NCBI GenBank assembly: GCA_020975725.1
Contig: QXJR01000003.1
Location: 620,001-684,000, forward strand
Direction: 5' to 3'
Source of the DNA: Picocystis sp. L7
Lineage: Eukaryota > Chlorophyta > Picocystophyceae > Picocystales > Picocystaceae
DNA length: 64,000 nucleotides
Positions 48,264-52,532 of this stretch are shown here, piece after piece. A program made the translations under genes and the position numbers. The notes beneath the pieces were generated by a model. That model saw only the letters and a list, made by a program, of their open reading frames with translations. It ran no database searches and was not told the DNA's origin. How positions within the stretch are numbered: position 1 is the stretch's first letter; each line of letters starts with the position of its first letter.

Positions 48264-48360
48264 CTCGCCTCGGTGTTCTTGTCCACGAAGACGTTGGTCC
48301 GATGAAGAGGGTGTGTCCAGTCCCTTCCATTCCCTTCGATCGGGGCAAGGTGGGTCCCTG

Positions 48361-49145
48361 CACCCCACCGCCACTTCGGGGGAGCGTGAGTCCTCTGGCT
48401 TTTTCTTCACATCAGGCCTGTTCCCCCTTCTTTTTTGTGGTGTTTCTGGGTGATTCGACGAGGAGAATCCGAATCTGAGCTTGGTTGGTCCTGGATCGTT
48501 CGTCTTTCCGGTGAACTCGGCGCGGCTGGCTCGGGGGTGTTCCAAAATTCACCCTTTTTGGGGCGTTTTGGCCAGGCGGTTGAACATGCGCTTCATGGCA
48601 CCAGGAGCATCGACTCTCGATGTGCTTTTTCTCATGAAGGTGTCCTATCTCTCCGTCTTTCCTCTCCTAAAGTTTGGCGGTCCGGTTCCTCGTGGATGCC
48701 TGGCTGCCGTTGGGAAGGTGCGAAGAAGCGGTGCCGTTTGGGCTTCCCACCACCTGCCGGTGGTTTTTCGCCTCTAGAAATCGCGCCAGGCAGAATTTGG
48801 CCGTTTCGAGAGCACCGTTCAAAAGATCGCGCCGAGATCTATCCAACGAGCCATCGTTTGTTGGATTTCAACCGATATTCGAAGAGATACGCGCATCGAA
48901 AGAAAGGAGAACCCGCCAGGGGAAACGAGGCAGGATCCAGGACCCAAAGACCCTGGGACGTACGCGGGCCTCCCGGCGCTTGCACGGGCCGAACCAGGCC
49001 GGGATCCATCGATCAAAACCGTGCAAAACAAAGTGCTCTACAACTTCGATTGGAACGGCAACGTCCGGAAAGGCCCTCCCGAGGCTCCACGGATCCCGCA
49101 GCGACACCCCCTCTCTCCCTATGAAGAAAAAGTGGCGGTGGGGTG
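48361..49145. repeat. 785-bp module, left copy
   Basis: Terminal inverted repeats of 16 bp; the right end extends to the 20-bp AAGTGGCGGTGGGGTGGGTA (49130-49149), mirrored at 51178-51197. The inside has no family-bearing reading frame; open frames are identical in both copies only because the DNA is. The left edge lies 97 bp upstream of the NDUFA8 start codon, so this copy occupies its promoter. Confidence 0.85.
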
Positions 49146-49755
49146 GGTAAGGGCTTGCTGCCGAGGCCACCGCGGACGTATGGCGCCTTGGATGGCTACG
49201 AAACTCTGGGAGACCTATGAAGTGAGCTAGAGGAATACTGTACCGGATGGGTAGCTCCTGAAACGCTGTGGTGGCTGAGAAAGGACGACCACAGTTTGGT
49301 GCTGAAAACAGGCCGAAACTCAGTGATTCAGGCCTGTCCTCCAGGGAGAGGCTTTTCGGCATACCGTACGAACCACGACGTTTTTGGCCACAAAAACTGG
49401 AGGGTAGTTGAATCACATGTCAGGAGTAGTGCTCACGGAGTTTGGTTACGATCCGCTTTCGCAAGGATCCCCGAGAGCCTGGGGAGGGAAGCCTGGGGGT
49501 GTGTCTTGAGAGGTCCCATGAGTCCCATCAACGGGGCCGAGCCCCAGGCTGGCCTTCTCAAGCCGTTTCAGCTGCATGCAAGCGTTCACAGGGGCTCCAT
49601 TAGTTGATTTGAGCTACGTGGAGCAGCTACAAGTCCGTAGGAGCCCAACACACGACTCCATGGGGGTGACTGGTTTTGAGCGAGAAACGGAAGGAAAAAC
49701 AGACAGAAACTGTCAAGTCAAATTACAAGACAAGCCATTTTCTCATGGGAGGCAA
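49146..49755. other. non-coding flank of the transposase gene
   Basis: 610 bp downstream of the transposase stop. No gene seen. I looked for terminal inverted repeats matching 50998-51181 and found none convincing. Confidence 0.4.
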
Positions 49756-50997
49756 TCAATACTTGGTGAACTCCCCACGGTTGAGGATGACCTCTTCAAG
49801 CCTCTTGGGCATGGTTTTGAGGAGCTTTGATCCAAGCCCCTCTTTGGAGAGCTCCTTCCATGCACGAAAGGTGCAGGTTTTGAGCTCTTCCAAGGTGGTG
49901 GGTCCCATGGCTTCCACCCTCCTGTCCAAGCAAGACCACACGTTTTCAATGGGACTAAGATCAGGGCTGAGAGAGGGCCAATCCAACATGAGATCCACGT
50001 GAGCTTGAGTGGAGAGCTCCACCAACTTGAGAATGGTGGCCTTCGATCGATGGGCCCCATCCCCATCCTGTTGAAAGGTCCAAGGGGCCTTCTTGTACAA
50101 CCTGGTGCCCTCCTTCATCAGCCAAGGGAGGACTTTTTCTGCGTACTCCTGCTGTCCTACACCCTTGGACACCTTCCCTTGTCCATCCTTGAAGTCACTG
50201 GGCTGCCCGGTGGTCCCCGTGACTGTCAACAGGCCTGTGAGTCCACGGGCACACACCCCACCATACACTTTGATTCGTGGGGGGGCCTTGTTGTACTCCA
50301 CGAGGGGTGTGGTACCAGGAGGGACCAGGGTTCGTTTGGAGCCTTTGTGCTTGGTGGTTCCCAGGTAAATTTGGTGGGCATCCGTGAAAAGAACCCGCCC
50401 AAAATCATCCCCCAAGTGCCGTTCCGCAAACTTCACTCTATTGGCCTTGTGCGAGGCCTGCAACTTCATCACTTTTTTTTGCACCTTGGTCTTCACCCCC
50501 AAATCCTTCAACAGCCGTTGCAAGGTCCTCAAGGGTACTCTACGTCCGTACCGTGCTTCCCACTCGCTCATGACGTCCCTTGTTCCCATGGCCTGGCCTT
50601 CAAGTGCACGAGACTTGAGCAAGTTGCACAGCCACTTGCCATGACCACGGGCATAAGAGAGGGAACGGCGTTTCGAAGAGGGGGAAGCTTTGGGCTTACG
50701 ATCCTTCACCCAAGACTTCACTGTCGCCCAACTCCGCTTCATAACCTTGGACGTGGCGGAGAGGTTCCCACTGAGCACCTTGTACGCCGCTTTGGTGGCC
50801 TGGATGGCCGCTTCCTCCATGAGGCCTGGTGATGGCTTTTTTGTGCGCTTCTTCCCCATCACGAAGCGCTTTGCCTTGAACTCCGGTCGGTGCTGTATTT
50901 GGTCTTTCCTCTTTCGATTCCACCCCATAATCCTCCCTTGCTCACCCTGTGTGCTGGGGGAGGGGAGTTGACAGCACCCCCCCTCCAAACCTGCCAT
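49756..50997 (-). CDS. Tc1/mariner (IS630)-type DDE transposase
   Basis: A 413-residue single frame. Residues about 60-110 form a helix-turn-helix-like DNA-binding part with a following basic linker. The DDE_3 catalytic core shows the first Asp in VLFTDAHQIYLG, the second in TFQQDGDGAHRSKAT and the third residue, Glu, in DWPSLSPDLSPIENVW. By my count 39 residues separate the second Asp and the Glu, so the core reads DD39E, longer than Tc1 (34). The frame is uninterrupted and keeps all three catalytic residues. ATG at 50997; an internal ATG (MGWNRK) is an alternative start. Confidence 0.9.
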   Translation of the reverse strand: MAGLEGGCCQLPSPSTQGEQGRIMGWNRKRKDQIQHRPEFKAKRFVMGKKRTKKPSPGLMEEAAIQATKAAYKVLSGNLSATSKVMKRSWATVKSWVKDRKPKASPSSKRRSLSYARGHGKWLCNLLKSRALEGQAMGTRDVMSEWEARYGRRVPLRTLQRLLKDLGVKTKVQKKVMKLQASHKANRVKFAERHLGDDFGRVLFTDAHQIYLGTTKHKGSKRTLVPPGTTPLVEYNKAPPRIKVYGGVCARGLTGLLTVTGTTGQPSDFKDGQGKVSKGVGQQEYAEKVLPWLMKEGTRLYKKAPWTFQQDGDGAHRSKATILKLVELSTQAHVDLMLDWPSLSPDLSPIENVWSCLDRRVEAMGPTTLEELKTCTFRAWKELSKEGLGSKLLKTMPKRLEEVILNRGEFTKY

Positions 50998-51181
50998 ACC
51001 TACCAGCGGTGACTCTCGGGGGCACTGCCACTCGCTGAGTGACGGCAGGACAACGAGATTTGGCAGGTGAATTGTACATCGTCCGGATCAACTACGGTTT
51101 GAATTTCAGGACCAGAAACCTCGTACTTCGGGCGCCACGGCCCCCCCAATCCAGCAGATCCCGAAACGCCCCCCACGTACC

Positions 51182-51966
51182 CACCCCACCGCCACTTCGG
51201 GGGAGCGTGAGTCCTCTGGCTTTTTCTTCACATCAGGCCTGTTCCCCCTTCTTTTTTGTGGTGTTTCTGGGTGATTCGACGAGGAGAATCCGAATCTGAG
51301 CTTGGTTGGTCCTGGATCGTTCGTCTTTCCGGTGAACTCGGCGCGGCTGGCTCGGGGGTGTTCCAAAATTCACCCTTTTTGGGGCGTTTTGGCCAGGCGG
51401 TTGAACATGCGCTTCATGGCACCAGGAGCATCGACTCTCGATGTGCTTTTTCTCATGAAGGTGTCCTATCTCTCCGTCTTTCCTCTCCTAAAGTTTGGCG
51501 GTCCGGTTCCTCGTGGATGCCTGGCTGCCGTTGGGAAGGTGCGAAGAAGCGGTGCCGTTTGGGCTTCCCACCACCTGCCGGTGGTTTTTCGCCTCTAGAA
51601 ATCGCGCCAGGCAGAATTTGGCCGTTTCGAGAGCACCGTTCAAAAGATCGCGCCGAGATCTATCCAACGAGCCATCGTTTGTTGGATTTCAACCGATATT
51701 CGAAGAGATACGCGCATCGAAAGAAAGGAGAACCCGCCAGGGGAAACGAGGCAGGATCCAGGACCCAAAGACCCTGGGACGTACGCGGGCCTCCCGGCGC
51801 TTGCACGGGCCGAACCAGGCCGGGATCCATCGATCAAAACCGTGCAAAACAAAGTGCTCTACAACTTCGATTGGAACGGCAACGTCCGGAAAGGCCCTCC
51901 CGAGGCTCCACGGATCCCGCAGCGACACCCCCTCTCTCCCTATGAAGAAAAAGTGGCGGTGGGGTG
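51182..51966. repeat. 785-bp module, right copy
   Basis: Apparently identical to 48361-49145 over its full length and in the same orientation, with the same 16-bp inverted ends. The right edge is followed by CTG, then by the leader of the TSEN2 gene and a tandem array. Confidence 0.85.
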
Positions 51967-52040
51967 CTGTCTCTCCCCCACCTGTCCCTGGTGGAGCCGA
52001 TCTGAACCACCGGATTCGTCCGAACGGACCCTTCGAAAGG

Positions 52041-52497
52041 AAGGCTTGATTGGGAAACGCGAGATCGAACCCCAACCGAGGAACCCGTCGGAGACGTCCG
52101 GGGTCCCCGGAAGATCGAAAGGAAGGCTTGATTGGGAAACGCGAGATCGAAACCAAGCCAGGAACCCGTCGGAGACGTCCGGGGTCCCCGGAAGATCGAA
52201 AGGAAGGCTTGATTGGGAAACGCGAGATCGAACCCCAACCGAGGAACCCGTCGGAGACGTCCGGGGTCCCCGGAAGATCGAAAGGAAGGCTTGATTGGGA
52301 AACGCGAGATCGAAACCAAGCCAGGAACCCGTCGGAGACGTCCGGGGTCCCCGGAAGATCGAAAGGAAGGCTTGATTGGGAAACGCGAGATCGAAACCAA
52401 GCCAGGAACCCGTCGGAGACGTCCGGGGTCCCCGGAAGATCGAAAGGAAGGCTTGATTGGGAAACGCGAGATCGAACCCCAACCGAGGAACCCGTTG
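52041..52497 (+). repeat. tandem array of 81/82-bp units
   Basis: Six copies begin with AAGGCTTGATTGGGAAACGC at 52041, 52123, 52204, 52286, 52367 and 52448. Two unit types differ in the segment after GATCGAA (CCCCAACCGAGG, 82 bp; ACCAAGCCAGG, 81 bp), in the order X-Y-X-Y-Y-X. Units are otherwise near identical and each carries the palindromic CCGGGGTCCCCGG. The array is in the 5' region of TSEN2. Confidence 0.9.
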
Positions 52498-52532
52498 GAC
52501 CTCCAATCCAAAGGTGTGTATGCCAGGACGAC

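Follow-up and report, generated by a model that had tools for sequence, protein, structure and literature searches.

Which kind of mobile element holds an intact transposase gene between two identical long modules, with the same CTG triplet on both sides, in the nuclear genome of a green alga? The question is raised by positions 48361 to 51966 of a 64,000-nucleotide stretch of Picocystis sp. L7 (contig QXJR01000003.1, positions 620,001 to 684,000 of the forward strand; the whole stretch is called the window). The element is a one-unit copy of a composite-like DNA transposon family, residing in the nuclear genome of a member of the green lineage. The favoured explanation, to which a probability of roughly 0.78 is given, is that of an independent lineage of composite-like DNA transposons, in which the transposase moves module-bounded units and unequal exchange between the modules makes arrays and solo modules.

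The element and its recurrence in the genome

The left module (48361..49145, forward strand) and the right module (51182..51966, forward strand) are long terminal direct repeats of 785 bp, placed in direct orientation with zero differences between them. Each has its own 16-bp inverted ends. These are perfect in both modules, namely CACCCCACCGCCACTT and its complement, at 48361..48376 (forward) and 49130..49145 (reverse) in the left module and at 51182..51197 (forward) and 51951..51966 (reverse) in the right one. The two copies of the CTG target-site duplication adjoin the outer ends at 48358..48360 and 51967..51969. With M for module and I for interior, the element is CTG-M-I-M-CTG. The interior (49146..51181, 2036 bp) opens with GGTA (49146..49149) and closes with TACC (51178..51181), both read on the forward strand, and carries the intact open reading frame (ORF) of a 413-amino-acid DDE transposase (49756..50997, reverse strand; assigned by Pfam matches and fold). 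The sequence-only reading had described this arrangement, and its description is exact. The right module lies upstream of the transposase and, judging from this position, may carry its promoter; the computed distance from the module to the first ATG is 184–344 bp in four elements from families A to D.

The genome was surveyed in a 20.5-Mb assembly of 30 contigs, with the window in contig C1. As proposed in the sequence-only reading, the module was searched for genome-wide, as was the interior, and the modules are not confined to this locus. At least 41 module matches (both window copies counted) and at least 40 interior matches were found, the latter comprising 30 near-full-length copies including that of the window, 1 truncated and 9 distant. 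The respective protein search gave 75 matching stretches, which belong to four families (A to D) plus degenerate pieces, and a search with a relative protein turned up no further family in the genome. Transposase identity between families is 43–51%, and the unit is 2821 bp long in family A, 2810 in B, 2466 in C and about 2461 in D. All four share one plan, M-(I-M)n, with n from 1 to 18. Because the plan recurs in four such divergent families, the element represents an established type rather than a pairing that arose by chance.

Uninterrupted transposase copies of the usual length make up 66 of the 75 stretches (28 A, 8 B, 23 C and 7 D; two of the A copies come from one duplicated locus on C4). 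By their coordinates all 66 sit between modules and no module-less interior is seen among them, within two limits: at C25 the sequence of the outer module of the last unit consists of N, and for family D the reading covered the two outer modules and the beginning of one inner module, the others being placed from the constant period. The nine remaining stretches are a copy with one stop (C16:375179), a copy split in frame into two stretches (C24:697175/698044), truncated copies on C8 and C18, a split family-B copy on C3 (two stretches) and degenerate sequence on C20 (two stretches).

The loci that contain an interior number 25, when the duplicated C4 locus is counted once and the C8, C18 and split C3 copies and the C20 relic are left out. 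In 14 of them n is 1 (A 7, B 4, C 3). The 11 others are multi-unit, with n of 2, 2 and 18 in A, 2 and 2 in B, 2, 2, 3, 4 and 9 in C, and 7 in D. The longest array, on C12 (23240 to 74803), spans 51.5 kb at a period of 2821 bp and consists of 19 modules and 18 interiors; the interiors show no differences from each other, nor do 18 of the modules, while one inner module has 1 extra base (786 bp).

Some copies have been altered secondarily. The two C4 loci (952872-957908 and 467593-472629) are an inverted duplicate pair of the same family-A element, with the same truncated end and the same near flanks. At C3:1006257-1018743 the transposase of a family-B element is apparently interrupted by an insert of ~9 kb, and at C8:715700-717500 the interior of a truncated family-A element stops near a short TTTAGGG-like stretch.

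Insertion sites and module history

The outer flanks were read at 54 insertions, that is, 23 interior-bearing loci (A 9, B 6, C 7, D 1) and 31 solo modules. Of the 25 interior-bearing loci, the duplicated C4 locus (one end eroded) and C25 were left out. For family A the solos are the 24 whose two ends both lie at module distance, lone ends not being counted. Family B contributes 4 of its 13 near-full-length solo modules and family C 3 of 6. On the two sides of the module the adjoining three bases agree at 23 of 23 interior-bearing loci, as the sequence-only reading had predicted for mobilised units, and at 25 of 31 solos (A 19/24, B 3/4, C 3/3). Overall, 48 of 54 insertions have matching flanks, against a mean of 5.7 and a maximum of 17 in 10,000 shuffles of the right flanks. 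In addition, the 16-mer end with at most one mismatch occurs 79 + 75 times in the genome, compared with 8 + 11 times for the reversed control. Both excesses show that the module ends are not due to chance.

In four families, units of the form M-(I-M)n, whose interior encodes one intact transposase, are bounded by module ends and a single 3-bp duplication. For instance, the C12 array of 19 modules sits as a whole in one such duplication. An exact comparison of filled and empty site is provided on C7, where a family-A solo lies inside a family-B module: GTG is duplicated, and the flanks joined with one GTG restore the intact family-B register. The TA duplication of Tc1/mariner was not found; the 48 duplications have 3 bp instead. 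Most of them (43 of 48) fit S-N-S (S, G or C; N, any base), the frequency of which is 0.264 in the window. GGG and CCC together account for 19 of the 48, and at such runs the exact length of the duplication is ambiguous.

The modules are conserved in their ends and their length. The ends are CA...TG in all four families, with CA-N7-GCCAC at all eight ends; the inverted repeats extend over 14–19 bp in A, B and C, whereas the D ends match only in part. The interior starts with GGTA and ends with TACC in A and B, and with GGTC and GACC, respectively, in C and D (A from several inner junctions; B, C and D from one element each), so that GGT and ACC are common to all, and the sequence further in differs. 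Modules of the A, B and C elements compared measure 785 bp, and the two D modules read 780 and 783 bp. In family B all 14 aligned modules have 785 bp and no gap, with up to 34 substitutions. The exceptions in family A are the 784-bp modules of C5a, the 786-bp inner copy of C12 and the truncated outer module at the duplicated C4 locus; family-A solos vary more in length than interior-bearing modules.

Between families the modules align only weakly, but in 6 of 6 pairs they score higher when oriented in accordance with the direction of the transposase than in the opposite orientation, judged against base shuffles. The z-scores for the agreeing and the opposite orientation are 12.8 and 4.8 in A-B and just 3.7 and 3.5 in A-C; in agreeing orientation they are 6.2 in B-C, 6.0 in C-D and 4.3 in both A-D and B-D.

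Within a locus the modules differ by 0–1 positions at 12 of 16 family-A and -B loci, and the C20 pair of family C is identical. Between loci they differ by 19–97 positions in interior-bearing family A and by 0–34 in family B. The interiors of C1 and C12 differ at 2 positions and their modules at 29, of which 21 fall in one 120-bp tract. From these alignments the modules appear to swap tracts, and most loci would since have gone through a homogenising step.

Two candidate explanations of the modules were rejected. Against modules as protein genes, there is no Pfam match in 10 further ORFs (6 module ORFs, 1 that spans a junction and 3 from the interiors of A, B and C; a small diverged or overlapping gene may have escaped the scan), and 1-bp length changes occur in C5a and in one C12 copy; in families C and D no stretch outside the transposase ORF exceeds 344 bp. 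Two independent module insertions that trapped an interior here only are contradicted by the GGT/ACC inner junctions of four families and by the recurrence of the plan.

Transposase and competing explanations

The transposase is of IS630-Tc1-mariner type, with a paired helix-turn-helix region and a DDE/D domain. In detail, the window ORF matches HTH_Tnp_Tc3_2 above the cut-off (E 2.4e-08) and DDE_3 slightly below it (E 2.2e-06; 28.0 bits, cut-off 28.6), and a sequence search of PDB retrieves Sleeping Beauty (E 2.7e-17). The predicted structure (mean predicted local distance difference test score 80.6, predicted template modelling score 0.59, residues 1–50 below 50) has its best structural matches in Sleeping Beauty and Mos1. 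The catalytic residues are probably D206, D311 and E351 (DD39E). The spacing between the second and the third is 39 in all four families, as read from one protein each; the third is E in A to C and D in family D (DD39D). The ratio of nonsynonymous to synonymous substitution (dN/dS; NG86, a 367-codon stretch, 28 pairs of 8 family-A copies) is 0.10–0.27 in 24 of 28 pairs; 3 pairs have synonymous change only and 1 pair is unchanged. The interior transposase is kept under purifying selection.

No inverted repeats were found directly around the transposase gene, and on this basis the idea of a nested Tc1-like element, bounded by inverted repeats of its own inside the interior, was rejected. A 7-bp CTGTCAA match on both sides of the gene, spotted by eye, was taken as chance.

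In the favoured explanation the transposase would bind the inverted ends of the modules and insert the DNA that lies between two outer ends into targets that are mostly S-N-S, with a stagger of 3 bp. The GGT/ACC flank may distinguish inner from outer module ends, and the module upstream of the gene would supply the promoter. After insertion, homologous exchange between modules would alter the number of units, much like recombination between the long terminal repeats (LTRs) of retrotransposons, and would yield arrays, solo modules and loci whose modules are nearly identical.

Several observations weigh against this explanation. Six of the 31 solos lack a 3-bp duplication. Unequal modules are found at 4 of the 16 A and B loci: C15 (up to 33 positions, 26 clustered in a tract of 125 alignment columns), the duplicated C4 locus (9, an end truncation), C27a (8) and C3 (4). 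In the D array the two outer modules have 10 differences. The B modules of C16 and C27b are identical, and that of C26 differs from the left one of C27a at 1 position; divergence between separate loci is therefore not always large. The array lengths hang on the assembly, and movement is deduced from the assembly of one strain. Finally, the link between the transposase and the 3-bp insertion is an association, since classical Tc1/mariner transposases use TA. As a separate observation, in the multimers of C15 and of family D on C3 the odd module read is the outer one upstream of the transposase.

Among the alternatives, an unlikely one fares best. It supposes an I-M circle with a single module as the intermediate, the transposase nicking both module ends on opposite strands. 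The module strands would then separate, each 3' end would join the target, and fill-in would restore a module on each side; the GGT/ACC inner flank would mark competent ends, and outside it would be replaced by the 3-bp target duplication. This would account for module pairs that are usually identical whereas modules at most other loci differ, for the GGT...ACC conserved at the inner junctions of four families and for the constant module length, and it fits the 66 uninterrupted copies, all with modules within the limits given above. On the contrary, 785 bp of duplex would have to separate, no helicase is recognised in the element, and unequal exchange alone equally makes modules alike. If true, a DNA transposon would regenerate both of its repeats from a single module, in a DNA-only parallel to the end duplication of LTR elements.

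A second circle model has a slightly poorer standing. Full copies would usually arise when a circle recombines homologously into resident solo modules, as in model b1 described for KolobokP elements (PMC9587614). The outer duplication would be preserved, solos and arrays would be explained, and modules do exchange tracts. However, five resident solos that were compared, of the 24 read at their ends, have 58–108 differences from interior-bearing modules, and integration into solos so divergent would be expected to produce reciprocal mosaics. Instead, the two modules are identical in most pairs, and the odd C15 module has no reciprocal partner. Integration of circles into solos is disfavoured as the main route.

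It is improbable that the modules are non-autonomous elements mobilised by another transposase, for instance an En/Spm-like one, with the Tc1-type gene as a passenger. En/Spm elements have CA...TG ends and 3-bp duplications. Under the TA rule as given in PMC8533490, a 3-bp non-TA duplication is indeed unusual for Tc1/mariner. Nevertheless, each of the four families pairs its own module with its own version of the same transposase, which is the sole gene recognised and is under purifying selection. The PF02992 (Transposase_21) profile has no match in the genome, which weighs little because the control genomes gave no signal either. A caveat to these counter-points is that the genome contains eight other DDE_3 matches.

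These eight matches lie outside the four families (C8:471997, C2:48710, C7:242998, C27:405923, C6:250163, C7:654482, C2:254607 and C2:209132); some have stops, and they are possibly relics of other Tc1-like elements.

The alternative offered in the sequence-only reading, a solo element tandemly duplicated and then hit by a Tc1-like insertion here only, is highly implausible, as is an assembly artefact, since nothing beyond the single locus supports them, whereas the same plan is found at 25 loci of four families, the 66 uninterrupted copies share the module context within the C25 and D limits, no inverted repeats were found around the gene and each locus tested has its own duplication.

Surroundings, relatives and known systems

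Directly to the right of the element, six head-to-tail copies of an 81–82-bp repeat occupy 52033-52499. Other genes of the window encode Rft1, an adaptin, a tRNA intron endonuclease and an adenylate kinase. Among the best 120 of 833 matches of the adenylate kinase, those with a named organism are green algae and land plants at no more than 46% identity, and two further matches reach 98% and 78%; the comparison scored only the 8000 candidates that share most words.

In public sequence sets, one protein is identical to the family-B transposase and others are 89% (C) and 96% (D) identical. Searches of genome contigs and of viral contigs gave 22 and 2 more distant relatives, respectively. A bacterial or viral source was rejected, as these relatives are distant and every match is partial.

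Bacterial composite transposons and the translocatable units of IS26 have direct flanking modules with their own inverted ends and amplify in tandem. The likeness drawn in the sequence-only reading holds for the architecture, with module-bounded units at many loci, each in its own 3-bp duplication. It fails for the gene: the bacterial type encodes its transposase within the flanking modules, whereas the present element has it in the interior and its modules contain no recognised gene. LTR retrotransposons and terminal-repeat retrotransposons in miniature similarly show identical direct terminal repeats, solo repeats and tandem arrays. However, LTR retrotransposons have a reverse transcriptase, a domain absent from the ORFs scanned with Pfam, and TG...CA ends, in contrast to a DNA transposase and CA...TG ends with inverted repeats.

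With IS630-Tc1-mariner elements the family shares the transposase fold, the paired helix-turn-helix region and the DDE/D triad, but a Tc1/mariner gene is directly bounded by one pair of inverted repeats, which is not the case here. Zator elements have a 3-bp target duplication. In the account of PMC7386202, Zator is a separate superfamily within the IS630-Tc1-mariner group, and the likeness is one of group. The members described in PMC7386202 and PMC8533490 duplicate TA (or TAA, TAAA, TATA), whereas here the duplication has 3 bp, mostly S-N-S, and two long direct modules are added; DD39D is among the spacings named there and DD39E is not.

KolobokP is the closest known plan, as far as it is described by Kojima and Bao (2022; PMC9587614), where its long terminal direct repeats (LTDRs) are said to be "unlike any other DNA transposons". 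As here, an interior (INT) lies between long direct repeats with their own short inverted ends, the repeat length is constrained, and solo repeats and multimers of the form (LTDR-INT)n-LTDR usually lie within target duplications (3–5 bp for solos). The differences are several. KolobokP has a Kolobok-superfamily transposase and a His-Me finger nuclease, the authors proposing that a homing endonuclease induces multimers; here the transposase is of IS630-Tc1-mariner type and no second gene is recognised. Its repeats measure about 450 or 660 bp, compared with 785 bp, its termini are 5'-RR / YY-3', compared with CA...TG in all four families, and its hosts come from seven animal phyla, compared with a green-lineage host. 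For KolobokP-4N1, 46 one-sided copies and 3 solo interiors are described, whereas here none of the uninterrupted copies was found without modules, within the limits given above. The same source partly discusses the likeness of repeat-flanked units to bacterial composites and IS26, and Coe1 of beet is described as an En/Spm-type gene within putative LTRs (PMC2426827). Among the open-licence papers listed by the literature searches (repeat databases were not searched), none on a further DNA transposon that combines this plan with a Tc1-type gene was seen, and the layout itself was found for one other group only, the unrelated KolobokP.

That the plan reappears in the green lineage, and with another group of transposases, suggests more than one origin of the architecture. 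Arrays that reach 18 units without a recognised endonuclease suggest that multimers may not need a nuclease. The module length and the GGT/ACC inner flank are candidate parts of the mechanism, and a Tc1-type transposase is here associated with a non-TA, 3-bp target.

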